From Erigeron canadensis (Eukaryota > Streptophyta > Magnoliopsida > Asterales > Asteraceae): 64,000 nucleotides of DNA. The stretch lies in assembly GCF_010389155.1 (NCBI RefSeq), contig NC_057767.1:8787765-8851764 (forward strand), read 5' to 3'. The position numbers and the translations under genes are program-made. Positions within the stretch are counted from its first letter, which is position 1. Every line of letters begins with the position of its first letter. Below are positions 12,242-56,967 of the stretch, piece by piece. Under the pieces are notes generated by a model that saw only the letters and a list, made by a program, of their open reading frames with translations, searched no databases and was not told the origin of the DNA.

Positions 12242-12380
12242 CTGCACAAAAATTGAAAGATGATGTCATAATTATGTAACTTAGAACATAAAAATGTTCT
12301 TCATGCATCAAAACCATGATTTTCGAAATATATATATAAAGGGATCTGGATTGAAAGGCAAAGGATATATTCAAACTTGC

Positions 12381-19294: not shown

Positions 19295-20786
19295 TTAAGA
19301 AAGAAACAGAACATCATTACGCCTGTCTCGATGTATTTCGATACCTATGACATAAGAGGTATCGTCGAGATCTTTCATGTCGACATTATGCGAATAGTAA
19401 ATGCTTCGACTCACGCAACATATCCAAGTTGTTACTTGCAAGTATAATATCATCCACGTGCAAAACAAGGATTGTAAATTTACTCCCACTGATCTTGAAA
19501 TAGGTGTATTAATCCACTTGATTCTTCAGGAAGTCTTGTCCTTTTATGACTTCATTAAACTTAAGGTACCGTTTTAATGATACTTGCTTCAACTTGTTTA
19601 TAGACTTATATAACTTGCAGACCATGTGCTATTTACCTTATGGAATTTTAGGTTCACATGCATACGTCTCATTGCAAGTTTCCATTCAGGAAAGTAGTCT
19701 TGACATCCATCTAATGTAAATCTAAATCATAATGAACTATGAATGCCATGATGATCCTTAAGGAATCTTTATGAGACATGAGATAATGTCTCTTAATAAT
19801 CGATTCCTTCCTTTTGAGTAAAGCCCTTTGCGTAACTAGTTATGGACTTATAGCGTTTGACATTTCCATTCAGGTCTAATTTGGTTTTGAAGATCCATAA
19901 ACAACTTACAGGTTTGGACTTTTCAAGAAATTCAACCAAGTCTCAAACATCATTATGCTACATAGAATTTAGATCTCAAGTTATGGCTTCATTCCACTAA
20001 TTGGCCCGATCGATATTAATGGCTTCTTAATAAGAGATAGGATCAGTAAGTTTTCCAATGTCCTCAACTTCAGTTAAATAAGTTATGAAATCATCAAAAG
20101 TTATGGCCTTGCATGACCTAGATGATCTCCTGAGTTGATTTTCAGGTTTAGCAAGGAAGATGCTTTAGCATCAGCATTATTTAAGATTCTTTATCATTAG
20201 TAGTATCATGATTAGGAGGATTAGGATTTTGATTAGGAGAAGGCAGATCAATGACATTAGGAGCAGCGTTGCGTACAAGAGGAGTTATCAGAGGAGTAAT
20301 AATAACCGACGAGTGGTTCCCCCCGCTTCTTGTACTTATTGCAAATCTTAGGTTATGATTTGTCGTGCTCCCACTGATCTCTTAGTTCTCAAGAAATGTG
20401 ACATGTTACGTGTCAATAATGTTAGTAGTGTAAAAAAGACAGTAAGACTAATAACCGATAAAGAAACAAGTAAGGGATTTAGGATCCAGTTTCTTTAAGT
20501 TAGGGTTATAGAGTTATGCCTTGGCAGTACAGCCTCATATGTTCATATATTTTAGACTCAGCTTTCTTTCTGTCCAAGAGTCTTAAGGACAGATTCTAAT
20601 GGTACTCTTATTGAGTATATGAACAGTTGTGCATAAAGCCTCAGTCCAAAGGAAAGTAGGTAAGTTAGTGTTGACAATCATACTTTTCACCATGTCCGTT
20701 AAGGTTCTATTTCTCCTTTTAGCAACATGAATTCGTTGAGGAGAACCTGCATGGTGTATTGGTTTATTATGCCATGTTCCTTTCAA
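19295..20786 (-). pseudogene. copia pol remnants (integrase and reverse transcriptase)
   Basis: Two recognisable islands remain. At 20583-20786 the C-terminal side of integrase shows AKRRNRTLTDMVKSM and FLWTEAL. At 19295-19489 reverse transcriptase shows DDTSYVIGIEIHRD. The order on the minus strand (IN before RT) is that of Ty1/copia. Stops and frame changes interrupt everything between them, so no product is expected. Confidence 0.8.
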
Positions 20787-22984
20787 AAGTTATGGAAAGG
20801 ACCATGAGCTTGACCAATATCAATATATCAACCATAATACTTACCTCCTCTATCTGACCTCACAACTTTTATAGATTACGATCAAGTTGGTTTAAAACCA
20901 AAGGTTTAAGATCAATAAAAGTTTGTAAGGATTCGGATCAGAAATAGGTGCATATAACGTGAATAATCGTTAATGAATGTAATAAATGATGTATGTCCTG
21001 AAATGAATGCGGGATAGGGGTCACTTAATGTCAGAGTGAGTTATTTCCAACAAGTTGGAACTTCTAGTGGCTCATTTCTTATTCCCTTTAGCCATTTCAC
21101 CTTAGAGCCAGTAAATACATGTTTGAAAATCACTAAAGTTAAGAGAATGTAATATTCTATCCTTTATGAGTCGTATCATGCGAACTCGTGAAATGTAGCC
21201 AAGATGATTATGCCACATTATGGAAGAATTCTCTAATTATTTAGGTGATTTTGTCTTTGTTTTAGTTATGTCATCAATATTAGAAGACAACAAAGCTGTG
21301 AGAAATTATGATCTAGCTCTGACTTACACAATAATTCATCAAAGAAACTATGACCAAGAAATTCATTATTATGAGTAATGGCAATCTCGTCATAACCATG
21401 AATTATTACATAACTTTCAAGGTCTTAAACTAGAGAAATAGATACAAGGTTCCGAGAAATTCTCGATACACGTAAGGTATCTACTAGTCTAATATACTTT
21501 GAAGTATATATGTAAATCATAAGTCTCCATGGTTTCAACATATAAGAGATCAACCCTTCCAACTCTAAGCTTTCTTTGGTCATTTGATAGCTTATGGGTT
21601 ATTTATAACCATTGTATTGATTTGGTCACATGAACCATAGAACCAGAGACACTCACTCATGTATTAATAAGTACATCCAAAAATAAAAAGAATCAAATAT
21701 TACATGAAATAAGTTACCTTTATAAGCTAGCTACTCCTTGATTTTAGGGCAATTTAGGCACAATCAGAATTGGCAGTTAGTATTACTCGTCAAGGACTCG
21801 AAGCTAGAGATAAGAGTACCTTGATTAGCCTTTTGAACTTTATTTCCATTATTATTATTGTTATATATTTCCTCTTAATGGAATTAGCAGTGGTAGTAAG
21901 GTGGACAACTTAAGGTTGGCCCAACTTAAGGCGACCATTTTCTTGCACACACATTGCTATTTAGTTCACTCATCGACCATTTATCCTTCATAGCATTATA
22001 ACTAATTATGTGTTCACAAATAATGTTATTTCCTTTGTACTTAAGTTACTTGCATACGCTTTATACATTCCCTCAGATACTATGATTGATGAAGTTTCTG
22101 ACCATCATTAGTGACAAGTAATTCGCCCTTTCCCACTTTCTTAAAATTCGCTTTCTGAGCTGCGGAAGAGATAGCAGTAATAGTAGTGGGTTCATTATGG
22201 CGAATGACATAGTCAAGGTCTAGCATCTTCAGAGTTAGAGGTATTTAATTTTTTATAAAGAAAAGTTTACATCAATAAGTGGCTCAATGCCTAAGTTATG
22301 TATTATATTGGAAATAAAGAGGATATGTATTTATGATACAAAGAATTGAAGATTATAATAGTAATGCCAAAAATAAGTAGGCCTAATAGTAATAAAATTA
22401 TAGTGACATGATTAGCTATCTAAGGCAAACTAACTAATTTCTAACAGTAATGGAACTAGAATAATGCCTAAAATAAGTAGACCTAATAGTAATGTTCCTC
22501 ATAATGACATAATTAGATAAACTAAGGCAAATTAAGTAATATCTCTAAACATAATGGAACTAAAGTAATGCCTAAAATACGTAAGAGGCTAAAGTAATGA
22601 ACCTAAAAGTAATGAGACTAAGACCATTATACTAATGAAGCTAGTGATAAGTAAACCTATTGTAAACACCAAAACAATAAGTTAACATAAGGCTCTACTT
22701 AGAATTTACATTACCTTTGGGCAGAAGTAACTAATATCTAAGTACAAATGAGCATTAGGTCATGCAACACAACGCTTGTCTTTTGACCTTTGGGCACAAA
22801 ATTCAGAAGCGTGTATATTATACATGAAAATAGTCCTTTTAAGCACACAAAGTATATTAAATCACCTTTAGGGAGAATCAATAGACTAAGTGTTCATTAT
22901 ACAAAAAGGAAAGGAACGCACCATGAGAATCACATTTGACCTTTGGGCACAAATGATAAAACCATGTACATTAGTGTGAAACCC

Positions 22985-23050
22985 CTACACATTACGGGTG
23001 TCCGGGGGCAGCGCCCCTGCAAGCGGGGTCCAAGGGGCTGAAGCCCCTGG
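22985..23050. repeat. GC-rich hairpins in the copia leader
   Basis: Two nested inverted repeats stand out from the AT-rich surroundings: GGGGGCAGCGCCCC, and AGGGGCTGAAGCCCCT about 15 bp further on. They lie between the leader repeats and the gag remnant of the minus-strand copia element and may be RNA structures of the genomic transcript (inference). Confidence 0.55.
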
Positions 23051-23149
23051 CTGAGATCGAGCTTAAGGTCCTATGGCAAAAATGTCTTAGAAAAAATTAT
23101 TTTTGAAAAATTAGAGACAAATTTAGCCACAAAATTATAGGGTAAAATA

Positions 23150-23620
23150 GTAGGCACGAACACATTCATCAGCTAAGATCATCTTCACTAAAACATGAAC
23201 GTAAGTAATAACTCGTGATAAAGTAAGCACGAAGTTGTCTAAAAGTTCGTCATAATTTAAGCACGAGGACATCAGTAAATCGTGATGACATAGGCACGTA
23301 AACATCATGTAAGTCGTGAAGAAATAAGCACGAAGATATCATAAAGTCGTGATGATGTCATCGCGAAGATGTCATACACTCATGATGATGTAAGCACGAG
23401 CTTGTAGCTAATTCGTGTATAGAGATAAGTTGAAGTTCGTGATGACGTAAGGGCGAAGAAGACATAACTGCGAAGATGATGTAAGCGCGAATAAAAGTAG
23501 CAATTATGATGACACCAGCACGAAGATGACATTAGTGCGAGGATGACATCAGCGCGAAGTGAACATTAATACGTGATGACGTCAGCACGAACTCGTGATG
23601 ACGCCAGCACGAATTTCTTA
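23150..23620 (-). repeat. Degenerate repeat array of TGACG/GCACGAA words in the copia leader
   Basis: Between the primer binding site and the coding region are about 15-20 imperfect repeats of a unit like GTGATGACGTAAGCACGAAG, including a perfect TGACGTCA at 23577-23584. TGACG is the core bound by plant TGA-type bZIP factors (established). The array may be a transcriptional enhancer of the element, or a run of structured leader repeats. It has no ORF. Confidence 0.7.
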
Positions 23621-23686
23621 TTCTGCAGATTTTTTAGATCGCGAAATTCATCAAATTCGAACCAAATCATGACTGATCGTTCGTAA

Positions 23687-23702
23687 CGTGGCTCTGATAC
23701 CA
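23687..23702 (-). other. Primer binding site of the minus-strand copia element
   Basis: On the minus strand TGGTATCAGAGCCACG begins two bases inside the 5' LTR. It is complementary to the 3' end of initiator methionine tRNA, the normal primer for plant Ty1/copia elements. Confidence 0.85.
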
Positions 23703-23704
23703 CA

Positions 23705-24150
23705 TGTTGGAATAAACGTGATTCGATTCGAGTGATAAAACATTTCAGATCGTCCTGTGAAACCTGTAAGAACATAAATCATAATTGCTATTTATTTCGG
23801 GTTTCCATGACAAGATGATTGAGTAATAATGGGATGAGTAATTCGGCTGTAACATGATGCACGAATTTAGAGAGGAGTGACTCACGAATTTTGGGTTTTG
23901 TGAGTGATTAGATTAACCTTAACTTAGGGTTAATGACTTTCTATTTATAAGGAGAGTATTTACACATTCAACCCCTTTACACCATTAGTCCTCTTAGTTT
24001 ACAATCAACTAATGAGAAACCCTATACTACGTCTCTAAGAGTAAATACGCCCATTATATAATTTCTAGACATAGGGATTTCAGTTATCGTCAATTATCAT
24101 ATCAGGAATGATAGATGATCAATGACGGTTACACTAACGTGATTCCAACA
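23705..24150 (-). repeat. 5' LTR of the minus-strand copia element
   Basis: 446 bp with a TATA box (TATAAATA on the minus strand, 23942-23949). It points along gene 2's transcription direction, so it could in principle start transcripts reading into kinase I, about 7 kb downstream. Confidence 0.9.
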
Positions 24151-27869: not shown

Positions 27870-27916
27870 CTTGTGGCGATCGGACGACGTTTTTCATTTC
27901 CATTGACAACTTGGTC
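27870..27916 (-). CDS. Gene 2, 47-nt microexon joining the array to kinase I
   Basis: The exon reads DQVVNGNEKRRPIAT plus two nucleotides, between an AGCAG acceptor and a GTAATT donor. Phase 0 in and 2 out fits kinase I (R|HTLELEDL). It is the counterpart of gene 1's 4584-4612, with 18 additional nucleotides. Its donor side, CGATCGCCACAAG|GTAATTAAT, resembles the array microexons, so it is probably a diverged member of the same family. Confidence 0.75.
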
Positions 27917-30900
27917 CTGCTCCAGAGTCTATGGGATATAAACTATTAATAATAATAATAAAGATAATCTCAATTTTTATTTCTATCTCTATTTTTATTT
28001 TTATCTCTATGTATCAATACTAGTCTTCAGCCCATCCGATAGATGGATAGTCTCAATTTAAATATACATATATATCAAAGGTAAAATCAAAATAATAAAT
28101 AACAAAACATGGACAAAACGAATTTAAAAGAATAAACCCTTTTGTAGTAGACGAAAAAGTCATAATCAAACTAAGATTGACAACAAACTAAATCAAAATA
28201 GATGAAAAATAAAAATTAAAGTGATATAGAAAAACACGAACAAATACCAAAAATAAAATTAAAATGATATAAAAAAACTGTATGTTTTTTTTATTAATAA
28301 AATTTACTGAACTTGATTTGTTATTAAAGTGGGAAGGATATGAATAATATGAATATGAATTATTAATAAAAATTTAGGTTATATGTAATAATAACTTATT
28401 GGGAGAGTTTTAAGGATATTATATATCTTTAATATTCAAAAGATTTTTTTTTGATATAAAAAAATTATGATAGAGTTTTAAATACAATTATCGATTAAAA
28501 AGTAAATAAACATAAAAAAAATATTGAGAAAAAAAGAGAGATCAAAGGTGAATATCAAAATAAAAAATAGCAAAACGTGAGAAAAATACCAAAACATGAA
28601 CAAAACAAATTTAAAAAAAATAAAAGATTTTTGTAGTAGAAAAAAAAACCATAATAATCAAACACGAATAAAATACCAAAAATAAATTTAAAGTGATATA
28701 AAAAAACTGAGAAATTTACTGAACTTTATTTGTTTATTAAAGATATGATAAAGAGGATTAATATGAATGAGGATAATTCATAAAAATTTATGTTGTATAT
28801 ATAATAATTCCTTGGAAGATTTTTAATATATATCTTTTAAAATTTAATAAGATTTGTTTTGATTAAAAAAGATTTATGGTGTGGTTTTACATATAATTAT
28901 TTATTAATAAGCAAATAAAAATTTAGAAAAATCTAGAAAAAAAAGGGAGATCTCTAGAATAATTATGAGAGAGTTCTAGACCTAAAAAAAAAAAAGCTTG
29001 GATTGAGGTCCTCTAAAATTATTATTAACTTCACCTATGAAGTTGAAAAAATCTTGATCTTTGAACTAAAATCAAAGGTTAAGATTCAAAGTTGATATTT
29101 GAATCTTGACCCTTGATTTTAATCCAAATGTCAAAATCATTAACTTTACCTATAAATTTAATAATAACTTTAGAGGATCCCAATCTAAAAAGCTTTAAGG
29201 GGTGTCAAGTGTACATTAACTTCCTTTTTTAGCTATAAGATATATAATAAAGAGAAAAAGTGAAGGTGATATTGTTATGCACCCAAGTTGGGTGAAATCT
29301 CTATCACATGCTAATTTTTTCATATTTAATGTATAATGAATAAGTAATTGATGCCCCATGTTTTTTTATAGATTAAAAGAAATTTCACCCAACATTGGTG
29401 TATTACCGCCACCTTCACTTCCCTACTACTACACTAAAATAAGATTGAATAGTTTTTGAAACAATATGTGCCACAAATTGTTTACAGTCGTATTTGACAT
29501 AATTAATAAAACGCTAAGCTTTTATAGATATAATACTAGATTTTAGGCCCGTGTATAATACATGACATTACAATATTAGATGCTAATTTCTTATATTTTA
29601 AAGTTTAGTTTAAAATTTTTATAAAACTTTGAACGTTATATTGAAATATTTTTTAAAAATATTTTCATCGAAGTTGGTTACTATGATATAATTATCGATA
29701 TTTAAATATTACAAAATCGTAATATGTTTATTGATGACGTAGACTGTAAAATACTTAGCGATAATTGAATATAAAAATTTATAATAAGCCAATGTCATTT
29801 TATTTGTTTTATGATTACACTTGGCGTATCACATTCTTATTTTGCACTAATAAAAAATAATATCTTATGCTGAGTTGAAACATATCATAAATATATGAAT
29901 TAGATTATGATAATGTTATAGGAGTTTCCTATGCAGATAATTTTTTATTAAAAAAAAACTTCAAAAAAAGATAGTTGTACAATTACTTTGAAAATATTAA
30001 TATATTTACATTAAATTTTATTTTTTAAATTAATTTTCTATTTATGAGATAGAACGTAATATTAGGACATACATTCGTTTATATTTTATTGAATATATAT
30101 TAGTTATTATTCTATTGGATATATATTTTATTATTCTTTATTTATTGTATTAAAATTATTAGGTAAAAAGTGTAAATTTATTATGGAGAACAAAAAAGTG
30201 TAAATTAAAGTCAAAATTGAAAACAAGAGTCAACATGATAAATTTATTTTAATCAAAAAAATTTAATCATGATTTAAACGGGTATGTGACACATATATGG
30301 TTTGTAGGTGTAACATCTCAAACTTTTTTATTGAACGGTTGACTTGAGTCATTAAGTTAAACTTCGCGTTTGTATAAGGTTCCAAACCTTCGCACCCTAA
30401 TGAAAAAGCCCTTTCTTTTTTATCCTTTAGATGTTTTAAGGCTTAAATGTGCTTAACGACTTAGGGTGAACAAAAATCAAACCGGAAACCGAAAATAAAA
30501 AAAACCAAAAAAATCGAACTGCCAAAACTAAAAGCAGAACCAAGCCAATAGTTTGGTTTTTAACTTTCTAAAAGCCAAACGGATTGGTTCGGATTTCGGT
30601 TTCATATGTATTAATTGACCTTAAAAACTGAACGAACCGAAACAATATATATTTTAATTTATTTTGCAATCTATATAATCTTAATGTTATATACATCTAA
30701 GATTACGTAAACTATTTTTGAAATAGTGATCTTGTTTATGAATAAAAAAGCATATACTTTGACAACTTGCATTTTGGTTTCGCTTTTAGTTTTCAAAAAA
30801 TCGAACGCATTGGTTCGGGTTTTAATTTAATATGTTAAACCTACCTAAAAACTGAACTGAACTGAAACTTGGGGTGTTCAAAGTTGGATATCTGAAGCTT

Positions 30901-31094: not shown

Positions 31095-31145
31095 CTTGAG
31101 GCGATTGGATGACGTTCCCTCATTTTCACTAGCCACCAGGGGTTG
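31095..31145 (-). CDS. Array microexon 1
   Basis: 51 nt, reads QPLVASENEGTSSNRLK. TTGTAG acceptor and GTAATT donor intact. It is the most 3' member in transcript order, so it would splice to 27870-27916. Confidence 0.65.
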
Positions 31146-31791
31146 CTACAATAAAATGAATTGAATCAACAGAATATAAATTACTCAAAAGTTCTTTCTC
31201 CACCTTATATTCAATTTCCAGTTTTGACTTGTTAAGTATTCAACTTTCAATAGAACTATATGAAAATAATACTTATAATGTCTAAGGAGAGCTAATAGCA
31301 TGGGCACACGCACTAGATCATCGTTGATAGTTAATACCAAGTGATTGATTTAAAATCTGAGTATACAAATAGGTAAATAATGAACAGAGTCTTAAACTAA
31401 ATAATGATTGACGGTGAATCTAGCGAGAATCTAGTTAAAGGGTAGAGAGAATCTAACAAGAATCTCTACTAGATTTGTTTAGTAAATTTAACGAAAATCT
31501 AACCTGTGAAAAAGTCTTCCAACAAATTAACTAACACAATGTAATGAATGTCATTATGCATGTGATATATGTTTTTGATGTTACCGTTCTCGAAATTTAG
31601 GACTAGACTAGATAATCTTTCTCACTATACCAAGTGGTTGCGGCCTTTAATTAGCTTTTATAGTAGTTTAATTAAAAAATTGTAACAACCTACAGCCTTT
31701 TTAAAATTACACACATTAGTAGATTTAGGTATTTCATGTGTCTCTGCGAATGATCCTTTATATACGAGCTAACTAACTAAAAGTTAATTGC

Positions 31792-31842
31792 TGTGATGCG
31801 ATTGGATGACGTTCTTTCATTTTCATTGGCCACCAAGGGTTG
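31792..31842 (-). CDS. Array microexon 2 (GC donor)
   Basis: 51 nt, reads QPLVANENERTSSNRIT. The acceptor ATGCAG is good. The donor position is GCAATT, GC in place of GT, with a weak consensus, so it may be skipped or poorly used. Confidence 0.45.
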
Positions 31843-32486
31843 CTGCATCAAATTGAATTGAATCAACGTGATATAAATTACTAAAAAGTTATTTCTCCAC
31901 CTTTTATTAAATATCCAATTTTGACTTGTTAAATCTTGAGCTTTCAATTAAAACTAGATGAACATGATGCTTATAATGTCTAAAGAATGCTACTGACGCA
32001 GCCACACGCACTAGGACATCGTTGATAATAATACAAAGTGATTGGTTTAAGATATGATTATACATATAGGTAAATCATAAACACATGCTTGGACTAAATA
32101 ATGTTTGACAGTGAATCTAGCGAGGATCAAGTTAAAGGGTAGAGTGAATCTAACAAGAATCTCTACTAAATTGGTTCTATAATTCTAATGAAAATCTTAC
32201 CCGTGAAAAAGTCTTCAAACAGACTAACAAACACAACCTAATGAATGTCATCATGCATGTGATATATATTTTTAATATACTGTTTTCGAAATTTAGGACT
32301 AGACTAGCATATCATTCTCACTAGACCAAGTGGTTGCGCCCTTTAATATGCTTTTATGGTAGTTTAATTAGATAATCGTAACAACCTACAACTTCTTTAG
32401 AATTACACACACTAGTAGATTCAAGTATTGCAAGTGTCCTGCAAACGATCATGTATATACTGACTAACTAACTAAAAATTAATTAC

Positions 32487-32534
32487 CTTGTGGCGATTGG
32501 ATGTTCCTTTATTTTCATTGGCCATTAGAGGTTG
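32487..32534 (-). CDS. Array microexon 3 (48 nt)
   Basis: 48 nt, reads QPLMANENKGTSNRHK. One codon is lost relative to the others, so frame is kept. Acceptor ATGCAG and donor GTAATT are intact. Confidence 0.65.
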
Positions 32535-33185
32535 CTGCATTAAAATGAATTGAATCAACGGGATATAAATTACCAAAAAGTTCTTTCTACACCTTATGTT
32601 AAATATCCAATTTTGACTCGTTAAGTTTTTAGCTTTCAAAATTTTCAATTAAAACTAGATGAACATGATACCTATAATCTCTAAGGAGAGCTACTGACGC
32701 GGACACATGCACTAGACCGTTGATATTAATACAAAGTGATTGGTTTAAGATATGAGAATACATAAAGGTAAATCGTAAACACAAGCTTGGACTAAATAAT
32801 GTTTGACGGTGAATCTAGCGAGGATCGAGTAAAAGGGTAGAGTGAATCTAACAAGAATCTCTACTAGATTTGTTCAGTAAATTTAACGAAAATCTAACCC
32901 GTGAAAAAGTCTTCCAACAAATTAACTAAGACAATGTAATGAATGTCATTATGCATGTGATATATATTTTTGATGTTACTGTTCTCGAAATTTAGGACTA
33001 GACATTCTTTCTCACTATACCAAGTGGTTGCGGCCTTTAATTAGCTTTTATAGTAGTTTAATTAAAAAATCGTAACAACCTACAACCTTAGAACTACACA
33101 CATTAGTAGATTTAGGTATTCAAAGTTTCACTGCTAACGATCCTGTATATACGAGCTAAGAGCTAACTAGCTAAAAGTTAATTAC

Positions 33186-33236
33186 CTTGATGTGATTGGA
33201 TGACGTTCCTTCATTTTTATTGGCCACCAAGGGTTG
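33186..33236 (-). CDS. Array microexon 4
   Basis: 51 nt, reads QPLVANKNEGTSSNHIK. Acceptor ATGTAG and donor GTAATT are intact. Confidence 0.65.
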
Positions 33237-33875
33237 CTACATTTAATCGAATTGAATCAACGTGATATAAATTACTAAAAATTAATTTCTCCACTTGATA
33301 TCAAAAATCCAATTTTGACTAGCTAAGTCTTCGACTTTCAATTAGAACTAGATGAACATGATGCTTATAATGTCTAAGAAGAGCTACTAATGTGCGGACA
33401 CACGCACTAGACCATCGTTGATAATTAATACAAAGTGATTGGTTTAAAATATGAGTATACATATAGGTAGAACATAAACACAAGCTTGGACTAAATAATG
33501 TTTGACGTTGAATATAACGAGGATCGAGTTAAAGGGTAGAGGGAATCTAACAAGAATCTCTACTAAATTGGTTCTATAATTCTAACGAGAATCTAATCCG
33601 TGAAAAGGTCTTCTAAGAGACTAACAAACACAATGTAGTGAATGTCATTATGCATTTGATATATATTTTTAATATTATTGTTCTCGAAATTTAGGACTAG
33701 ACTAGATAATCTCTCACTAGACCAAGTGGTTGCAGCCTTTAATTAGCTTTCATAGTAGTTTACTTAAAAAATGGTGACGACCTACAACCGTTTTAAAAAT
33801 ACACACATTAGTAGATTTAGATATTCCAAATGTCCTTGCGAACAATCCTGTATATACCAAGTAACTAACTAAAAG

Positions 33876-33926
33876 TTCGAGGCGATTGGATGACGTTTCT
33901 TCATTTTCAATTGCCACCAGGGGTTG
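33876..33926 (-). pseudogene. Array microexon 5 (donor deleted)
   Basis: The exon body QPLVAIENEETSSNRLE is intact and the acceptor ATGCAG is good, but an 8-bp deletion across the exon end has removed the GTAATT donor; the sequence runs straight into ACTTTTAG. It is probably skipped, unless a downstream donor is used. Confidence 0.7.
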
Positions 33927-34550
33927 CTGCATTAAGATGAACGGAATCAACGAGATATAAAATACTAAAAGTTTCTTCCTTCACCTTATATTCAGTATCC
34001 AATTTTGACTTCTTAAGTTTTTAAGTTTCAATATTAAGTCTATGGAGAGGTACTGACGCGGACACACACACACTAGACAATCGTTGATAATTAATACAAA
34101 GTGATTGGTTGAAGATATGAGTATACATATAGGTAAATCAAAAACACAGGTTTGAACTAAATAATGTTTAACGGTGTATCTAGCAAGGATCGAGTTAAAG
34201 GGTAGAGTGAATCTAACAAGAATCTCTACTAAATTGGTTCTATAATTCTAACGAGAAACTAATTCGTGAAAAGGTCTTCCAAGAGACTAACAAACACAAT
34301 GTAGTGAATGTCATTAAGCATGTGATATATATTTTTAATATTATGGTTCGCGAAATTTAGGACTAGATTAGATAATCTTTCTCACTAGACCAAGTGGTTG
34401 CGGCCTTAATTAGCTTTCATAGTAGTTTAATTAAAAAATCGTGACGACCTACATCCGTTTTAAAAATACACACATTAGTAGATTTAGATATTCCAAATGT
34501 CCATGCGAATGCTCCTGTATATACCAAGTAACTAACTAAAAGTTAATTAC

Positions 34551-34601
34551 CTCGAGCCGATTGAATGACGTTCTTTCGTTTTCAATTGCCACCAGGGGCT
34601 G
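34551..34601 (-). CDS. Array microexon 6
   Basis: 51 nt, reads QPLVAIENERTSFNRLE. ATGCAG acceptor and GTAATT donor intact. Confidence 0.65.
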
Positions 34602-35246
34602 CTGCATTAAGATGAACTGAATCAACGGGATATAAATTACTAAAAGTTTCTTCCTTCACCTTATATTCAGTATCCAGTTTTGACTTCTTAAGTCTTCAAG
34701 TTTCAATTTTAAGTACACGAACATGATGCTTATAATGTCTAAGGAGAGGTACTGACGCGGATACACACTAGACAATCGTTGATAATTAATACAAAGTGAT
34801 TGGTTGAAGATATGAGTATACATATAGGTAAATCAGAAACACAAGTTTCAACTAAATAATGTTTGACGGTGTATTTAGCAAGGATCGAGTTAAAGGGTAG
34901 AGTGAATCTAACATGAATCTCTACTAAATTGGTTCTATAATTCTACCGAGAATCTACTCCGTGAAAAGGTCTTCCAAGAGACTAACAAATACAATGTAGT
35001 GAATGTCATTATGCATGTGATATATATTTTTAATATTATTGTTCTTGAAATTTAGGACTAGACTAGATAATCTTTCTCACTAGTCCAAGTGGTTGCGCAC
35101 TTTAATTAGCTTTTATAGTAGTTTAATTAAAAAATCGTGACGACCTACAACCGTTTTAAAAATACACACATTATTAGATTTAGATATTCCAAATGTCCTT
35201 GCGAACGATCCGGCATATACCAAGTAACTAACTAAAAGTTACATAC

Positions 35247-35297
35247 CTCGAGGCGATTGGATGACGTTCCTTCATTTTCAATTGCCACCGGGGGTTG
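35247..35297 (-). CDS. Array microexon 7
   Basis: 51 nt, reads QPPVAIENEGTSSNRLE. Acceptor ATGCAG; donor GTATGT, still a good plant donor. Confidence 0.65.
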
Positions 35298-35892
35298 CTG
35301 CATTAAAATGAACTGAATCAACAGGATATAAATTACTAAAATGTACTTCCTTCACCTTATATTAAGTATTCAATTTTGACTTCTTAAGTTTTCAAGTTTC
35401 AATTTTAAGTAGACGAACCTCATGATTATAATGTCTAAGGAGAAGTACTAACATGGACACACAATTGGTTGAAGATATGAGTATACATATAAGTAAATCA
35501 TAAACACAGGTTTGAACTAAATAATGTTTAACGGTGTATCTAGCAAGGATTGAGTTTAAGGGTAGAGTGAATCTTTGGTTCTATAATTCTAACAAGAATC
35601 TAATTCGTGAAAAGGTCTTCCAAGAGACTAACAAACACAATGTAGTGAATGTCATTATGCATGTGATATATATTTTTAATATTATTGTTTTTGAAAATTC
35701 AGGACTAGACTAGATAATCTTTCTCACTAGTCCAAGTGGTTGCGGCCTTTAATTAGCTTTTATAGTAGTTTAATTAAAAAATCGTGACACCTACAACCGT
35801 TTTAAAAATACACACGTTAGTAGATTTAGATGTTCCAAATGTCCTTGCGAACGATCCTGTATATACCAAGTAACTAACTAAAAGTTAATTAC

Positions 35893-35943
35893 CTCGAGGC
35901 GATTGGATGACGTTCCTTCATTTTCAATTGCCACCTGGGGTTG
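35893..35943 (-). CDS. Array microexon 8
   Basis: 51 nt, reads QPQVAIENEGTSSNRLE. ATGCAG acceptor and GTAATT donor intact. Confidence 0.65.
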
Positions 35944-36469
35944 CTGCATTAAAATGAACTGAATCAACGGGATACAAAGTACTAAAAGTTTCTTCCTTCA
36001 CCTTATATTAAGTATCCAATTTTAACTTCTTAAGTCTTCAATTTTAACTAGACGAACATGATGCTTATAATGTGTAAGGAGAGGTACTGATGCGGACATA
36101 CACACTAAATACAAACAGATTGGTTAAAGATATGAGTATACATATAGGTAAATCATAAACACAGGTTTGAACTAAATAATGCTTGACAGAGTATCTAGCA
36201 AGGATCTAGTTAAAGGCTAGAGTCAATCTAACAAGAATCTCTAATAAATTGGTTCAGTAAATCGAACGTGTATCTAAACAATGAAAAAGTCTTTCAACAT
36301 ACCAACAAATACAATGTAATGAATATCATTATGCATGTGATCGGATTTCCAAAAAATTATATTTTTAATAAGACTGTTCTTGAAATTTAGGACTAGACTA
36401 GATAATGTTTCTCACTAGACCAAGTGGTTGCTTCTATAGATACCAACTCACTAACAAAAATTTAATTAC

Positions 36470-36517
36470 CTTGAGGTGATTGGATGTTCCTTTATTTTCA
36501 TTGGCCATCAGGTGTTG
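36470..36517 (-). pseudogene. Array microexon 9 (acceptor lost)
   Basis: 48 nt, body QHLMANENKGTSNHLK, donor GTAATT intact, but the acceptor reads ATGTTG in place of ATGCAG. Like microexon 3 it lacks one codon. It is the most 5' array copy in transcript order and is probably not recognised as an exon. Confidence 0.65.
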
Positions 36518-36901
36518 CAACATTAAAATGAAATGACTCAATGGGATGTAAATTACTAAAAAGTTTTTCCTCCACCTTATATTAAATATTCATATTTTAC
36601 TTGTTAAAGTCTTCAACTTTTAATTTTGACCATAATATTTTGCCTTTGTATTATATAACACTTCAAATAAAGTATATGGATGGTTGAGTTTTAAGTATAC
36701 TTTTCATTCATATAACTTTTATCAAATAATATGTAACACAGACACACACAAAAAAAAATTTATGGTCAAAATTGGAAGAAAGATACTACACTAGTCAAAT
36801 GGAAAAAAAAAATTGGTTTAAGTTTAGTTAATCCCCTCTTTGGTATCACAATTCTGATTATACTTTGATCAATCAGGTGACTATTATAAATGGGGAATTA
36901 C

Positions 36902-38170
36902 TAGGGATTACAAATAAACCCGTACCCGATGGGGAAAACTGAAACCCGATATTTTTGGTTCGGGTTTGGGTATGAGTGTCTAGGGCCGGGTATGGGTATG
37001 GTTTAGACTTTTTAGCGGGTCCGGTATTTGAGGAAGACCTGCCCGAACCCATATACCCAAACCGTATATTACAATCTATTTAATTTTTTTTTGCGTGATC
37101 AGTGAAGTTAGCTGGCAGGCAGCTGACTTAGCTATCTGCCTGCTTGCTCACTTTTTTTTTTTTTTCCAGTTTTAGTGTTTAAGTTAGTATGTTGTGTGAA
37201 TGTTACTTTAACTTCTTGAGTTTTAATTTTTTCCTTTATTTAGGGTGAAGTCAGCTGCCTGCCTGCTTGCTTACCTTTTTTTTTTCCTTTCAATTTTAGT
37301 GTTTAAGTTAGGGTGTTGTGTAAATGTCACTTTAACTTCTTGAGTTTTTTATTTTTTTCTTTATTTAGGGTGCTAATATTTTAGTTATTCACACTTTAAC
37401 CACTAAATCCTTTTAAGACTTCTTATTTTTACCATTAAAGTTTTATGTTTAATAATTCATGTGATACAACTTTAGTCTATTTTAATTTTCACAATCAATG
37501 TTTTTAGCTTCTTATATTTATCTTCCAAGAACATCGCAATTTTATATTTTGCCACCAAAACTTTATGGTTTAAGATTAACGGTGCATTTTTTAACGATGT
37601 GTATTTTTGTATAATGGTAATGGTTGACATGTTAGAATTAATTACCCGCATTCAAGTCTATGTTCGGTTGGTATCCCCGACCAACGGGCGGGTATAACAC
37701 TAGTATTACATAGTAATGAAATGTTTACATATGAATCATAATATTACTCTCTGTTATTAAATCAAATATTCAGACCATGATTTATTCAATTTAGGGAATT
37801 ATAGTATTTTCATCATTCTTTATAATGGATACATGTTAGAATCTGCTGGTAATATTGTATCGTTATTAAAAATGAAAGCTCCTCTAATATAAGTATATGG
37901 CAGTGGATTGAATTTTTTAAGTGATGTAATATAGATTCTCTAGCAGAATAGGTGATGTATAATTTGTATAATGTAATGAATAATCCTAACTTCAAAAAAT
38001 TTATAGTAATAAAGGATCCTCGATTACCCGTGGGAAAACCCGTTATCCGATGGTTAGTAAGCAAACGGGGACCCGTCGGTTCCGGGTCTGGGTTTGGGAC
38101 GGGGATTTTTATTCAGGTCCGGGTCCGAGATTAACTAAACACGGCCTATACCCGACCCATTGCCATCCTA
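36902..38170. mobile_element. hAT-like non-autonomous transposon next to a splice donor
   Basis: The ends are TAGGGATTACAAAT and, inverted, TAGGATGGCAATGGGTCGGG, with CCCGTACCC/GGGTCGGGTAT-rich subterminal DNA, typical of plant hAT elements of the TAGGGATGGCAA type. Target duplication: GGAATTAC (36894-36901) and CGAATTAC (38171-38178), 7 of 8 matching. Gene 1 (6354-6361) and 41,867-41,874 show the empty site CGAATTAC. Inside are two similar stretches of about 120 bp (GCTGCCTGCCTGCTTGCT region, 37,100-37,380). No transposase ORF. Confidence 0.8.
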
Positions 38171-38178
38171 CGAATTAC

Positions 38179-38226
38179 CTTAAGTTGGTTGGGCGACGTA
38201 CCAAAAACGGGAGGTTCTAACAGTGC
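38179..38226 (-). CDS. Gene 2, 48-nt microexon after pseudokinase B
   Basis: Reads ALLEPPVFGTSPNQLK, phase 0 at both ends, acceptor TTGAAG, donor GTAATTCG. The donor lies entirely inside the 8-bp target duplication of the hAT-like element, so the splice site survived the insertion exactly. Homologues at 6363-6410 and 41876-41923. Confidence 0.75.
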
Positions 38227-38354: not shown

Positions 38355-39281
38355 GGGATTTTCATGTTTCCATTGAAGTTCCCAGGCGTTCTCAAGTGCT
38401 TCCGCAACCTTCTCCATATCTGGTCGTTGTTCTCGGTCTTTCTTCAAGCAATGATAGGCTGTGTCTGAGAAGATTTTAAATGATTGTGGGTGCATTTCAT
38501 TCCTTATATGAGGCTCAATGATCTCATCCAGCTTTCCCTCTTCATAATGGCGTGTGGCCACTAAAGCCAGATATCTACCTGAGGCGTCTATAACATATGC
38601 TCGTCTCCCCGAGAGGACTTCAAACATTACGACACCAAAAGAGTAAACATCAGATTTCTGTGTCACAGTTGCGGTATCTACATATACTGGGTCTGCATAG
38701 CCTATTGTGCCAGCAGGATGATCGATAACAAGGTCATGTCTCCGAGTTGCAGGAACTTTTACCGAAAGTCCAAAACCAGATACCTTGGCATCCCAGTTTT
38801 CATCTAACAAAACTTTAGAGCTCTTTACGTCGCGGTGTATGACATCATAACCGCGACTTGTATCACAATGGATGTAAGTCGAAGCCCTGGCCGCACCAAT
38901 ACATATGTGTAATCTTTGCAACCAAGTGAGGTTTGGGTTTGTTAGATTGTTTTCAAGACTTCCATTGACTTCAAGCTTGGTAACGATGATCTTCTCGTTA
39001 GCCTCATCACAAAACCCAACAATAGAGACAACATTTGTATGCTTGAGACTAGAAAGCAGTGCAATTTCGGTCCAAAACTCTTTCTTTCCTTGCCCAAACA
39101 TCTGATTTAACCTTTTTATATCAACATCGATCAGTTGTCCGTGCCGCGACAGTTTTCCTTTATAAACATAACCAAATCCACCTTGGTCAACGATACGCCG
39201 ATTAACAGCAAAGTTTTGGGTAGCCGATATAATCTCTTGTAGTGGGATGCGTAAATGAGCTAATTCTTCGAGTGATGACAT
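38355..39281 (-). CDS. Gene 2, pseudokinase exon B
   Basis: 309 codons from ATG 39281 (MSSLEELAHLRIPLQE) to a GTAAGT donor. The kinase fold is whole: VDQGGFGYVYKG, DIKRL, HRDVKSSKVLL, VSGFGLS, VYSFGVVMF. DFG is GFG and the catalytic-loop Asn is Lys, as in gene 1's pseudokinase, so it is predicted to be inactive. Upstream of the ATG the acceptor-like TTTGCAG present in the other two copies reads TTTCCA, so this exon is probably a true first exon with its own promoter. A minus-strand gene starting here would run to 9600. Confidence 0.8.
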
Positions 39282-39423
39282 ATATGGGATGATCTGTGTA
39301 CTCAACGGGTTGGAAATGAATTAATTTAAAGGAAGGAAGAGTTAAAGATGCTACGAGCATTATTTAGCACAAACTTTGATGAACGTAGTGTAGATTAGAT
39401 ATCACGACGGGACGGTCAACGTG

Positions 39424-41239: not shown

Positions 41240-41290
41240 CTTGAGACGATTGGATGACGTTCCTTCATTTTCATCGTCCATTAGGGGTTG
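41240..41290 (-). CDS. Microexon of the QPLVA family outside the array
   Basis: 51 nt, reads QPLMDDENEGTSSNRLK, phase 0 at both ends. ATGCAG acceptor and GTAATT donor intact. It follows pseudokinase C and its microexon (41876-41923), in the same order as in the array, and shows that each pseudokinase unit in gene 2 originally had its own copy. Confidence 0.7.
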
Positions 41291-41875
41291 CTGCATTAAA
41301 ATAAAATGAATCAACGGGATATAAATTATTAAAAAGTATTCTGTCCGTCTCATATTAAATATCAAATTTTGACTTGTTAAGTTTTCTACTTTTAACTTTG
41401 ACCGTAAAATTTTTTGTTTGTATTATTTAACACTTCAAATGAAATATATGGGTGGATTGAGTTTTAAATATATTTTTCATTGATATAACTTTTAACAATT
41501 ACTATTTAACATAAATTTTTTTGTTCATTAAGAAAAAGACTTCATAAGTCAAAATTAAACATTTAATATGAGATGGATGAAGTATTAATTGGTAACAAAT
41601 TATATATTGAATATCTTAAGCCAATATATGAGGGGTATTTGGCGTTGCGTTTACATAATAAATTTTGGGTTTTTAAAACTGCGTTTTGAAAATGTTTACA
41701 TGCTTATTCAAAACTGCTTTTTCATAACATATAATCACTTCTACATCCAAATGTTGTTTAAGATTATTTTTACTTTATAAACATAATAATCAAATAATTA
41801 TCATAAAACGAAATCCCAAACCCCCTTTTAACATTCTTTGATCAATCAGGTGTTTATGATAAATGGACGAATTAC

Positions 41876-41923
41876 CTTGACGTGGTTGGGCGACGTACCA
41901 AAAGCTGGAGGTTGTAACTTTGC
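41876..41923 (-). CDS. Microexon after pseudokinase C
   Basis: 48 nt, reads AKLQPPAFGTSPNHVK, phase 0, acceptor TTGAAG, donor GTAATTCG. Homologous to 6363-6410 and 38179-38226. Confidence 0.75.
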
Positions 41924-42005: not shown

Positions 42006-42932
42006 CGGATTTTCATGTTTCCATTGAAGTTCCCAGGCGTTCTCAAGTCTTTTGGCAACCTTCTCCATATCCGGTCGTTGTTCTCGGTCTTTCTTCAAGC
42101 AATCATAGGCTGTGTCAGAGAAGATTTTAAATGATTGTGGGTGCATTTGATTCCTTATATGAGGATCAATGATCTCATCCAACTTTCCCTCTTCATAGTG
42201 GCTCGTTGCCACTGAAGCTAGATATCTACCTGCGCCGTCTTTAGCATATGCTCGTCTCCCGGAAAGGACTTCAAACAATACAACACCAAAAGAGTAAACA
42301 TCAGTTTTGGGCGTCACAATTCCGGTTTTTACATAAACTGGGTCTACATAGCCCATTGTGCCAACAGGTTCATCGAAAACAAGGTCATGTCTCCGAGTTG
42401 CAGGAACTTTAATCGAAAGTCCAAAACCAGATAGCTTGGCATCCCACTTTCCATCTAACATAACATTAGAGCTCTTAACGTCTCGGTGTATGACATAATA
42501 ACCGTGACTTGTATCACAATGGATGTACGTCAAAGCCCTGGCCACACCAATACATATGTGTAATCTTTGCAACCATGTAAGGTTTAGGTTTTTTAGATTG
42601 TCGTTAAGACTTCCATTGACTTCAACCTCGGTAACGATGATCTTCTCGTAAGCCTCGGCACAAAACCCAACAATAGAGACAATATTATTTAGATGCTTGA
42701 GACTAGAAAGCATTGAAATTTCGGTCAAGAACTTTTTCTCTTCTAGCCCAAACATCCGATCAAACCTTTTTATATCAACATCGATCAATTGTCGGTGGTG
42801 CAACACTTGCCCTTTGTAAACATGACCATATCCACCGCTGTCAATGAGATGTTTAACATTAAAGTTTTGGGTGGCCAATCTAACCTCTTGTAGTGGGATG
42901 CGTAAATGAGCGGACTCTTTGAGTGGCCACAT
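42006..42932 (-). CDS. Gene 2 (or separate unit), pseudokinase exon C
   Basis: 309 codons from ATG 42932 (MWPLKESAHLRIPLQE) to a GTAAGA donor. Motifs: DSGGYGHVYKG, DIKRF, HRDVKSSNVML (catalytic Asn present), LSGFGLS (GFG in place of DFG), VYSFGVVLF. The DFG Asp is lost, so it is predicted to be catalytically weak or dead. A TTTGCAG just upstream could be an acceptor for a 5' UTR exon. Its downstream partners are unclear: its microexons could splice past pseudokinase B into the array, giving an alternative first exon, or this may be a partial duplicate. A stretch near 42,150-42,310 is almost identical to gene 1's pseudokinase (6648-6813). Confidence 0.8.
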
Positions 42933-44085: not shown

Positions 44086-44090
44086 GATAT

Positions 44091-44755
44091 TGTTAAGTCT
44101 GGGATTCGCTGACGAAGACTTGTTGGCTGACACACGTCGTCAGCAAGTCTCTAACAATTCACCAGCAACTAAAGAGACGTCTTCAGCAAGATGCATACTG
44201 ACCTAAGTTTGTCTTGGCGGGAAATATTCAAACTACATAAAGACAAAAAGGTCACATGGTGGTTAACTAACTGTAATTTGCCCTGAATGGTAAATGTACA
44301 TGTTGGGACCAAAGCAAGGGTTCTCTCTCTCTCTTACCCGATTTGGTATAGAAGACAATAGGCACATGATTCAAGTACCATGAGCCAACTGGAAGTCGAC
44401 AACCACCATCAAGTCACAATCAAAGCAGGCTGTGTTGACTCATGTCTTCCCCTATATAAAGCAACACAACCACATTGTGCTAAGTGCGTCTGGCCGTCTA
44501 GAAAGTGTGTATCACTTGTAATTGCTCAAGGTTTTCTTATCTGTCTAGACTTAGCAATTATCTTTGTTCTTTTGTATTCTTGTAAGTCAAGTGTAAGATC
44601 AACCATGTATTCATCGTTTAATCAATGATACATATGATTATCCTTGCATTGATGTATTGCAATTGAACTTTACATTGTTCTTGTTGTTTACTTGCTTGCT
44701 TATTTTCTTTCTTGTATTCTAAATTAAACATAAGTTGTGCATTCGTGGACCATCA
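44091..44755 (+). repeat. 5' LTR of the Sirevirus
   Basis: 665 bp, TG...CA. Near its start an imperfect hairpin forms between AGACTTGTTGGCTGACA and TCGTCAGCAAGTCT. The 82-codon frame starting at 44380 is present in both LTRs and is not a gene. Confidence 0.95.
44453..44460 (+). promoter_or_regulatory. LTR TATA box
   Basis: TATATAAA in the middle of the LTR, repeated at 57341-57348 in the 3' LTR. Position and sequence fit the U3/R promoter of a plant copia LTR. Confidence 0.65.
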
Positions 44756-44757
44756 AG

Positions 44758-44770
44758 TGGTATCAGAGCC
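44758..44770 (+). other. Primer binding site of the Sirevirus
   Basis: TGGTATCAGAGCC two bases after the 5' LTR, complementary to the 3' end of initiator methionine tRNA. Confidence 0.9.
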
Positions 44771-44871
44771 ACCGTTCCTAAGTCATTGGAACAAGATCTG
44801 TTTGCCTTCTTTTGTTCATATTTAAAATTTCTGTTCTTTAATTCCTCTTAAATCTTTTTTTAACAAGAACC

Positions 44872-47800
44872 ATGTCTTCTGTTCCCAGCCTTGTGAACAC
44901 ACGTGACTTTGGTTACGTGTCAACACCTCCTAAGTTTGAGCCCAAAGATTTTGGATCTTGGAAGGAGAGAATGCTTCTTCACATCGCTGGTGTGGAGCCC
45001 TATTTAATGACCATATTAACTGAGGGTCCATACGTACCGATGTATGTCCAAAGGACTCCAGGAGCTACACCTGAAGCTCCTAAAATAGTCACTGACCTGG
45101 TTAAACCAGAAGTCCAATGGACAGATGAAGAAAGAAAGCTGGTAAATCTTGATGCCAGACTTAAAAACATGATTATAGTTACTCTTCTTACTGAAATCAT
45201 GAAACTGGTCATCAAGTATCCCTCTTCAAAGGAAGTATGGGATAGACTTGTCAGCATCTATGGAGGCTCTGCTGACCTCATTAAAATCAAGAAAATTGAT
45301 TTAAAAAAAGCCTATGAAAATTTCTTCTCCCTCCCCGATAAAAGTCTTGAGAGCACCTACACTCGCTTTAAAGGGTTGCTCAATGATATGACAAATGTAG
45401 GCATTACCCATGATAACTTTGAGGTATGTCACAAATTCATTGATTCTCTTCCTCTTAAGTGGCAAAACTTAAGACAAACTCTTCGCACAACAAAGAAAAT
45501 CCAAGACTTTGATCTTGAAGAACTTTTTGGTACTCTTCAATTTGAAGAAAGAGCATTGGCTCAAAATATTCGAGCTTCTGCTGATGTCAAAAGGCATGCT
45601 GGCTCTTCCTCTTCTTCTGTCAGCATCTCGTCTCATCCTATTTCTGACCCTGTTGCTCTTGTCTCTACTGAGCCCATCGATCTCTATGATGGTGCCAGTA
45701 TCTCTAATCTTCCAGCATCAATTCAGACTCTCATTAATGAGCCGGATGATGAAGAAAAACAAGAAATGTTTAATGACTTCATGGGATTTGCCCTGGTTGC
45801 TGGAAGAAAATACTCTAGAAGGTGGAATAATCGAAAAACGATTACTCCCCTCAAATCTCCTGTTGATAAATCACAGGAAGAGTGCTGGAGATGTGGCAGG
45901 AAAGGCCACTATCAGAAGGAGTGTAGAGTCTCCTTGCCCAATCCTGCTGCCTCCAAAACTAATCCTCCCAAACCTGCTGATGATTATAGGAACAAATATT
46001 ATCAGCTGAAGGCCAAGGTTGCTGAAACAGAGGATAAAGTCCCAGCAAAAGGACTGATTGCTGAGGAACATGATTGGGCTGACTCAGATGATTCTGATGA
46101 TGACGATTATGTTGATGCTATGTGCCTTATGGCACTTGCTGACAGTGATGCTCTGACCAAGGATCAAGTCTCCTCTAGTCAGTGGGTGAACGTCACTGTT
46201 AAAAAGGTACACTCTCTTCTCTCTTCTTCAAATCAAGACAAGACCAAAATCATTGAGTCTTTGTCTTGTGATCTTCAGTTCGTAGAAAGTCTACGTGCTG
46301 AACTTCAATCCAAACTTAACTCTGCTGGAGTAGAGTTGAGTGAAAAATCTGAAAAACTTATGAAATTGAAGAATGTTCATGTTGAACTTCAATCTCATGA
46401 GTTGATGACTCAAAAACTTCAACTTGAGAATGAATCTCTCAAGGCTGAAGTTTCTAATCTAAAGAAGATTGTGACCTCCTGGTCAAAGGCTTCTAAATTC
46501 CATCATCAATGCTTGAGCGAACAAGTACCTGCTCAAGTACAAGCAGTAATTGGTGGCAATTTTGATGCTGCTGCCTCCATTGCTGACTCCTTTAAAGATG
46601 ATGTAAAGCCTGAAGTATCCATTCATCCACCTTGTTCGTCTTCCATCTCACTAGATGAAATGAAAAAGCGGTATTTTGTCAAAGGACATAATGACTATCA
46701 TGCTGAGATGGACACTAAAGCTTCAGCATCTTCTAGTGATCCCTCTTCTCTAAATGCTAAAAGTACTAGTACTTCTACCAGTACTTTTAACATGTTCTCC
46801 CATCTCCCTATTGTTGGCATGTTGCCACACGAAGGGAGAGTTCAAAATTCTCCTCCAAGAACCTTCAAAGGAGATATCTCGAGTGATGGGTATGTGCCTA
46901 TTGCTCCTCAACCTCTATCTTCAAAAGGTGCTGAGCCTTTCAAAAGAAGCACCATTGCTGCTCCATATGACTATGGTATCCCTCAGCAGGACCATCATGT
47001 CTATCAGCAAATTTCTGGTGCTATATCCTCTCAACTTGAACCTTCTCATACAAATTCCATGTCAGAACAAGTAAATAGAAAGGTCAGGTTCGCTGATGAA
47101 AAACACCAGCAAGTACCTCCCACAAAGGGTGTACATGCTGATGTTGTATCTCATTCCTTACCCTCAAAATCAAATCTAAGGCATGTCACTCCAAAAAGGG
47201 GAAGACAGCCTTCTCAGAATAGATCTGACACTCCTCAGCGAGGACACTTCCCTCATCAGCAGATAAGGCCTATAACTCCTCAGCGAGGATATTTGCCTCA
47301 TCAGCAAACAAGGTCTATTACTCCTCAAAGAGGACATGTGCCCTCCCAGCACTGTCAATCCTCTATTTTCAACAAGGAGTATCTACCTCATAGACAAATG
47401 AGGTCGATCACTCTAAAGCGGCAAGTCAGATCCACTACTCCTATTCGTGAGAATCTGCCTCAGCAGGGTAACTCCTCTTCTCATCCTGCTGGGAAGCAAG
47501 CATGGACCATGATAAGAGGACATCAACCGCCTCAAAATCATCATGGTGAATCCATACTTGGCCCTGTTCCTCAAATGCCCCCTCCTAAGCTTAGACAAAG
47601 GAATAAATCCAAGTCTAAGCAAAAGAGCAAGGCTTCCTCTTCCTTATCTCCTCAAATAAATGAACTCACTCAGCGAGTGAATGATCTTTCATCTCAACTG
47701 AGGGATTTTCTCATTCAAAGTCAAGGCAATTCCTCTGAAAATAAATGCTATCTCTGTAGCAGTAGAGGACATGTTGCTTCTGAATGTGTTCTATTCTGTC

Positions 47801-51677: not shown

Positions 51678-51723
51678 TCACTCATGTTTTGCTGCCCATA
51701 TTCCTTTTATGAAGATGAGCAGC

Positions 51724-56860: not shown

Positions 56861-56967
56861 ATTGTAAATGATGTAACTTGTCTAGTTTATGAAATAAAGA
56901 ACCTTCTTCTTCCAATTATTTCTATGTTTTCTCAAGAAATTTTCATCCAGCAAGTCTCCTCAGCTAA

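Follow-up and report, generated by a model that had tools for sequence, protein, structure and literature searches.

How does a plant kinase gene come to hold nine copies of one short exon within a single linker, and does the gene make any use of them?

Structure of the array

The window, by which we mean the whole stretch of 64,000 nucleotides of DNA from the weed Erigeron canadensis that was analysed, contains nine units in tandem, each about 0.7 kb long, on the minus strand (36517-31095), spaced 574-702 nt from start to start and bearing one exon each. A sequence-only reading of this DNA had proposed nine exons of 48 or 51 nt, all of phase 0-0, and the description holds with one exception. 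The exon is 48 nt long in a9 and a3 and 51 nt elsewhere, save in a5, where a deletion has clipped it to 50 nt; all nine copies begin in phase 0, and all except a5 end in it. Both AG and GT are kept in six of the nine, namely a8 (35893-35943), a7 (35247-35297, donor GTATGT), a6 (34551-34601), a4 (33186-33236), a3 (32487-32534) and a1 (31095-31145). The damage in the other three agrees copy by copy with what had been reported: a2 (31792-31842) has a weak GC donor, ACA/GCAATT; a5 (33877-33926) has lost its canonical donor to an 8-bp deletion that also removes the last exon base or bases; and a9 (36470-36517) has TTG where the acceptor AG is expected. In a5 a second in-frame donor, GTATAT, lies downstream, and its use would yield an open 69-nt exon of phase 0-0. 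Read in frame, none of the nine exon bodies contains a stop codon, so that the bodies are indeed open even where a splice site is broken. The three codon-sized indels that had been counted come down to one distinct event, a 3-nt deletion common to a3 and a9; the other indel touching an array exon is the 8-bp deletion in a5.

When a single unit is compared with the window, the other units match it at 74-89% over 191-717 nt, and for units of about 0.7 kb matches of this kind exclude chance similarity. The units share intron as well as exon sequence. The adjacent homologous exons that mark tandem exon duplication are therefore present in the DNA, and their place within one transcribed gene is our model.

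The gene around the array

What kind of gene holds the array? The window reproduces annotated proteins of Erigeron canadensis, and one of them, P0121, is reproduced letter for letter. P0121 starts in the K_A exon (42006-42932, minus strand, as are all features given here), a first pseudokinase recognised by identity to P0121, by motifs and by a Pfam kinase match, in which GFG stands where DFG is expected. The protein continues through E2a (41876-41923), a 48-nt linker exon of phase 0-0 with the sequence AKLQPPAFGTSPNHVK, and through ExA (41240-41290), a 51-nt single-copy sister of the array exon with the sequence QPLMDDENEGTSSNRLK, for which it uses the same AG and GTAATT sites. In the upstream pseudokinase unit (42932-41240) the exon occurs just once, at 41290-41240. 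The K_B exon (38355-39293) encodes the second pseudokinase and is internal in P0121, with the acceptor cacag/ATC. The gene had been thought to start at the ATG at 39281, in K_B; because P0121 joins the two pseudokinase exons in one gene, 42932 is the more probable start of the array gene. Within K_B, P0121 uses a 70-nt intron (38618-38687) that shifts the frame, and the protein ends at 553 aa.

Beyond K_B lies E2b (38179-38226), a 48-nt linker exon of phase 0-0, ALLEPPVFGTSPNQLK. The array follows, and then T (27870-27928), the last linker exon, 59 nt long and of phase 0-2, which is by homology a diverged relative of the array exon; its start is set by analogy with the gene 1 exon in P0001. 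Two kinases are recognised by Pfam and motifs, K2 (15892-16843) and K3 (14228-15124). A domain search places a first phloem protein 2 (PP2) domain exon at 12377-12741, where the frame agrees, and an open frame with a second PP2 domain at 9600-10049. By motif, GFG replaces DFG in K_A, K_B and gene 1 K1, and HRD and DFG are both present in K2 and K3. Motifs and Pfam kinase matches accordingly bear out the proposal that the array lies between a pseudokinase, with AKVSGFG where DFG is expected, and two kinases, kinase activity being predicted. PF07714 stretches number three in P0001 and two in P0121, as in a tandem kinase, and the motifs give a combination of kinase with pseudokinase in which activity is again only predicted. 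Conceptual chains that include 0, 1 or 6 array exons remain in frame and free of stops.

Gene 1, the neighbour, was said to have no such exon. The array exon itself is absent, as stated, but P0001 includes two homologous neighbours, E2 (6363-6410) and the 41-nt T (4584-4624), a homologue of gene 2 exon T. Nor is the build that of a receptor kinase, as had been supposed, since the only domains that Pfam finds in P0001, the protein annotated for gene 1, are kinase and phloem-protein-2 domains. Pfam finds no malectin-like extracellular domain in P0001 or P0121, and a rough test finds no transmembrane segment in either: the highest 19-residue Kyte-Doolittle means, 1.54 in P0001 and 1.37 in P0121, lie within kinase sequence. 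The cut-off for a transmembrane call is 1.6.

Divergence of exons and introns

Do the array exons evolve as coding sequence? Divergence among a1-a8 is 0.148 in the exons and 0.148 in the introns, with an exon/intron rate ratio of 0.93 (2 delta lnL 0.11); for a2-a8 the ratio is 1.21 (2 delta lnL 0.73). The sequence-only reading had held that exons diverging as fast as their introns across accessions would refute its proposal, and such equality is what a1-a8 display, among copies rather than accessions. With a9 added the ratio becomes 0.59, the exon being slower (2 delta lnL 7.4). In our judgement this value should be discounted, because a9 has an upstream flank of a different, founder type, which makes the intron rate too high.

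Coding retention was set against neutral simulations that start from a consensus ancestor on one tree (600 runs for pN/pS, 4000 for stops and splice sites, 20000 for working copies). The observed pN/pS, 0.50, lies below the neutral median, 0.84 (P 0.077). Under neutrality the absence of stops in eight copies has P 0.22, the loss of AG or GT by substitution in at most one copy has P 0.31, and the survival of at least six working copies in eight has P 0.098. All four single measures lean toward constraint, although 17 codons give the tests little power, and the retention of open frames and of splice sites exceeds the neutral expectation only marginally (single-measure P 0.08-0.31). With tests this marginal, we do not regard it as demonstrated that the array exons are under strong purifying selection. 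A value of P 0.036 for all eight bodies remaining open was set aside, since the deletion in a5 reaches into its exon, so that the bodies are not all intact in that sense.

Linkers of related proteins

Protein searches gave the best 120 of 2813, the best 120 of 1337 and the best 120 of 1273 matches, from candidates of limited length, and 593 inter-kinase linkers were taken from 295 of the 316 relatives listed. Of 109 long linkers, at least eight contain tandem peptide repeats, each matched by 0 of 2000 shuffles. The count is a lower bound, as 13 linkers reached P <=0.02 with 100 shuffles, of which eight were retested with 2000 and five left out; the repeat in P0121, which on retest was matched in 53 of 2000 shuffles, stands outside it. 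Two or three repeat units occur in the linkers of different sunflower proteins, and linkers with peptide repeats come from sunflower, Mikania, Rutidosis and wild lettuce (P0006, P0297, P0066 and P0120). From these repeats we conclude that duplication of linker units recurs in the daisy-family multi-kinase clan, a conclusion that is new here. A loose regular expression for a GTSSNxLK-like motif hits 35 of the 593 linkers, some of them with no more than a similar sequence. None of the nine array peptides was found among the 316 relatives listed.

Two pairs of isoforms were considered as well. P0007 and P0018 (X4 and X3, one locus by name), taken as candidates for alternative linker exons, show no linker gap of five residues or more. 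P0028 and P0030 (X3 and X2) are set apart by one linker unit of 23 residues; with identity at only 1412 of 1691 columns, they were rejected as products of one gene.

Relation to known systems

Tandem exon duplication as such is not new. In grass CENP-C (PMC549713, 2004) pairs of exons known from cDNA have been duplicated recurrently, to a few copies, with signs of positive selection. As here, the gene is a plant gene, and the exons of its poorly conserved middle region have been duplicated and deleted repeatedly, with protein sizes that vary there; in our case, by contrast, one short exon is present nine times, its evolution is near-neutral, and the evidence is genomic sequence. Dscam-type arrays (PMC1397879) and, in Drosophila, the hydra array of nine exons (PMC9013439) likewise gather many homologous exons in tandem within a single gene, but there one copy is chosen per transcript, whereas phase 0-0 exons would fit in any number. 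Yr15/WTK1 (PMC6170490) joins kinase and pseudokinase domains within one protein; our model differs in having two pseudokinases, two kinases, PP2 domains and an exon array in the linker. The sunflower OrDeb2 interval (PMC8866362) has clustered CrRLK1L-1-like kinases with one or two kinase domains and no extracellular domain. These resemble the present proteins in being CrRLK1L-1/FERONIA-like by name, the subfamily being inferred from names and not from a tree, and differ in that the portion of that paper describing them has no linker exon array. For K_B the best solved-structure match is FERONIA (E 5.2e-64), which places its kinase domain with the FERONIA-related ones by match, not by tree. Plant microexons in the small sense, 15 nt or less where PMC8831610 defines them, do not include the array exons of 48-51 nt. 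In the literature searched we found no nine-copy array of a short frame-neutral exon in a plant pseudokinase-kinase linker.

Origin and possible use of the array

How, then, did the array arise? We think it reasonably probable that a frame-neutral linker exon, tolerated by the gene, was multiplied by unequal exchange, and that the copies have drifted near neutrality since. The founder would have been a single linker exon of about 17 residues ending EGTSSNxLK, in a multi-kinase plant gene, and it may have been amplified with its intron flanks into nine tandem units. Since the exon length is a multiple of three and the phase 0-0, gain, loss or skipping of a copy would keep the frame; extra copies would for that reason be tolerated and drift, some losing splice sites. 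Should transcription pass right through the gene, as many as six copies could be spliced in, seven if a5 uses its alternative donor, and their inclusion would lengthen a probably flexible linker from the pseudokinases to the two kinases. Exchange among units, or duplication of blocks of them, would suit the tree of the copies, which pairs the non-adjacent a4 and a2, a3 lying between them, with bootstrap values of 99 on all intron columns, 100 on the downstream intron, 77 on the upstream intron and 88 with a1 included. The earlier suggestion that the array tunes the linker thus stands as to frame-neutral gain and loss and a tree that fits exchange; use of the copies for tuning finds no support. 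Against near-neutral drift of tolerated copies stand the lean of the retention measures toward constraint and the slower exon when a9 is counted, and with no array peptide among the 316 relatives listed, tolerance within a working mRNA is itself a supposition.

Might the 5' half of the gene instead be decaying, with transcripts that end or break frame in K_B and an array that is inert behind a premature stop? P0121, the one listed protein recognised as covering K_B, does end there, none of the matches listed equals the half of gene 2 that encodes K2, K3 and PP2 (gene 1 is the best, at 83%), and exon T is split from K2 by an 11-kb intron that holds an LTR pair 90.4% alike (17744-18203 and 23705-24150). 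However, the conceptual chain from K_A to K3 runs for 1307-1408 codons without meeting a stop, K2 has a dN/dS of 0.36 against gene 1, and long genes may escape gene prediction, the searches having covered certain lengths with 120 matches listed for each. Of the alternatives decay is the least unlikely, though unlikely it is.

Selection for a ladder of linker lengths, in which copy number, through exchange or alternative splicing, adjusts the distance from pseudokinase to kinase, would suit the in-frame chains, the six intact copies with no stop in any body, and the linker repeats of relatives, sunflower proteins included. It sits poorly with the equal divergence of exons and introns in a1-a8 and with the absence of the array peptides from the relatives listed, and we find it decidedly doubtful. 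A bolder version would have the whole daisy-family clan set its inter-kinase spacing by frame-neutral duplication of linker exons, the nine units being an extreme case whose mRNAs hold varying numbers of 16-17-residue units; we rate this as rather doubtful. Tandem repeats are difficult to assemble, and the number of units might be wrong, but neighbouring units in a1-a8 differ by 5-17% in their introns, indels distinguish the units, and the array spans only about 6 kb, which makes an artefact very improbable.

If the copies are used, unequal exchange alone could alter the length of the linker between regulator and kinases with the frame intact, which would give a kinase group built like the tandem kinases of plant immunity a simple way to vary. 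If they are unused, amplification of a tolerated exon offers a clean example of exon copying that a gene can bear.

The edge of the array has a structure of its own. Copy a9 adjoins a founder-type flank, and the flanks of ExA and a9 are 82.6% alike over 288 columns. Near the founder-type flanks are inverted repeats, 41344-41391 with 41530-41577 and 36617-36641 with 36754-36778, which we take to resemble a small transposon; the array edge would then fall inside it.

Structure of the array and its gene

On the minus strand, from 36517 to 31095, gene 2 carries nine tandem units spaced 574-702 nt start to start. Every unit contains a single short exon, numbered a9 to a1 in the direction of transcription. 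The exons are 48 nt long in a9 and a3 and otherwise 51 nt, all of phase 0-0, with a5 clipped to 50 nt by deletion. Both AG and GT are intact in six of the nine (a8, a7, a6, a4, a3 and a1); the a2 donor is ACA/GCAATT, a5 has lost its donor through an 8 bp deletion, and the a9 acceptor is replaced by TTG. None of the nine exon bodies holds a stop codon, and an alternative GT 19 nt downstream would give a5 an open 69-nt exon, likewise of phase 0-0. The array is real and striking: the sequence-only reading, which described nine copies with one 48- or 51-nt exon apiece, six with both splice sites, one with a GC donor, one without its donor, one without its acceptor and the bodies open, is borne out.

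What gene contains these exons? When gene 1 is spliced from the window, its residues 1-653 agree exactly with the beginning of protein P0001 (LOC122606497 isoform X2, Erigeron canadensis). A second E. canadensis protein, P0121 (553 aa, named FERONIA), is matched letter for letter by five stretches of the window, in the order K_A, E2a, ExA (QPLMDDENEGTSSNRLK) and K_B, the last as an internal exon, so that the array gene probably begins at 42932 with two pseudokinase exons. P0121 uses a 70-nt intron within the K_B kinase exon (38618-38687), which shifts the kinase frame and terminates the protein. ExA (41290-41240), an exon of this predicted, annotated protein, has the same AG and GTAATT sites as the array exon; the annotation thus counts the single sister of the array exon as a real exon. 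The start of linker exon T is given by P0001 in gene 1, and was placed by analogy in gene 2.

GFG replaces DFG in K_A, K_B and the K1 exon of gene 1, while K2 and K3 have both HRD and DFG and are followed by two PP2 domains. Pfam assigns three kinase and two PP2 stretches to P0001; it finds no extracellular domain in the protein, and there is no clear transmembrane stretch. The closest solved structure to K_B is FERONIA; for K2 the closest are chains 2qkw and 3hgk ('Protein kinase'), which we take to be Pto, and then FERONIA.

Three protein searches of length-limited candidates (best 120 of 2813, of 1337 and of 1273) gave as top matches P0001, P0121 and P0001, in that order. Among the matches listed, no protein has exactly the sequence of the K2-K3 half of gene 2, and none of the nine array peptides is found in the 316 listed proteins, where only P0121, via its ExA, shares an exact 8-residue word with a8, a7 and a1. 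These absences among the matches listed count against the full gene model, with a weight limited by the length windows and by prediction quality.

Origin, upkeep and possible role

Judged by sequence, the array exon is homologous to two other short exons, E2 and T: the E2 exons of gene 1 and of K_A are 80% identical to the array exon over 30 nt, E2b 77%, and T 73% over 63 columns. Aligned with the array, the ExA flank matches the a9 flank over 288 columns (82.6%) and those of the other eight copies over 146-176 columns (80-84%), so a9 adjoins the founder-type flank. In trees of the copies, a4 and a2 are sisters despite a3 between them (bootstrap 99 with all intron columns, 100 with the downstream and 77 with the upstream ones, and 88 when a1 is added), and a5-a8 form a second group with bootstrap 100 in every tree. 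Such branching fits either block duplication or exchange between units.

How constrained are the exons? Mean exon and intron differences are 0.148 and 0.148 in a1-a8, 0.153 and 0.122 in a2-a8, and 0.152 and 0.207 in all nine; intron windows as conserved as the exon number 403/572 in a2-a8 and 0/311 in the full set. Under a partition model the exon/intron rate ratio is 0.93 for a1-a8 (2 delta lnL 0.11) and 1.21 for a2-a8 (0.73), and with a9 included the exon appears slower (0.6135 versus 1.0484; 2 delta lnL 7.4). We ascribe this slowness mainly to a9 having a different flank upstream, and in part to an older constraint predating the array. Other measures lean toward constraint, none reaching 0.05: pN/pS is 0.50 against a neutral median of 0.84 (P 0.077), and the neutral probabilities are 0.22 for the lack of stops, 0.31 for substitutions having cost no more than one copy its AG/GT, and 0.098 for at least six of eight working copies. 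For scale, dN/dS is 0.36 for K2, 0.70 for K3 and 0.50-0.84 in three K1 comparisons, so the kinases are likewise fast-evolving. The best-supported mechanism is that a frame-neutral exon was amplified by unequal exchange, with near-neutral upkeep thereafter; that the array tunes the linker between pseudokinases and kinases is a candidate reading.

Relatives and literature

Among 593 inter-kinase linkers from 295 of the 316 listed proteins, 35 have a GTSSNxLK-like motif; the plants concerned include Tanacetum, Artemisia, Helianthus and wild lettuce. Of the 109 linkers with 50 or more residues, 13 show internal repeats at P <=0.02 (100 shuffles), and in the eight retested (P0006, P0297, P0066, P0120, P0063, P0052, P0099 and P0053) 0/2000 shuffles scored as high. 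The peptide units are 16-30 residues long, and most cases differ from one another in unit sequence; of the sunflower proteins, P0006 has three units and P0052 two when counted by eye. These repeats, seen at the protein level and mostly in gene predictions, indicate that the clan has undergone several duplications of short linker units, at lower copy number.

Duplicated exons that can be set beside the array are the recurrently duplicated exon pairs of grass CENP-C (PMC549713) and the tandem exon duplications of animals, including a nine-exon hydra array (PMC9013439). A study in sunflower (PMC8866362) reports CrRLK1L-1 kinases of the daisy family that lack extracellular domains, some of them having two kinase domains. 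No report of a linker exon array in a gene of this sort turned up in the literature searched.

A 124-nt repeat is present in about two copies in the intron immediately preceding the array (37136-37372), and inverted repeats at 41344-41577 and 36617-36778, perhaps a small transposon, lie next to the founder-type flanks of ExA and a9. The 11-kb intron from T to K2 holds an older LTR-like pair (17744-24150; 17744-18203 and 23705-24150, 90.4% alike), and a linker intron of gene 1 holds a tandem repeat of about 31/63 nt (5876-6164). A young LTR retrotransposon occupies 44086-57643; its LTRs (44086-44755 and 56974-57643) are 98.8% alike. It has gag, integrase and reverse transcriptase domains of copia type, as well as a long additional ORF at 53426-55945 that has no match in Pfam.
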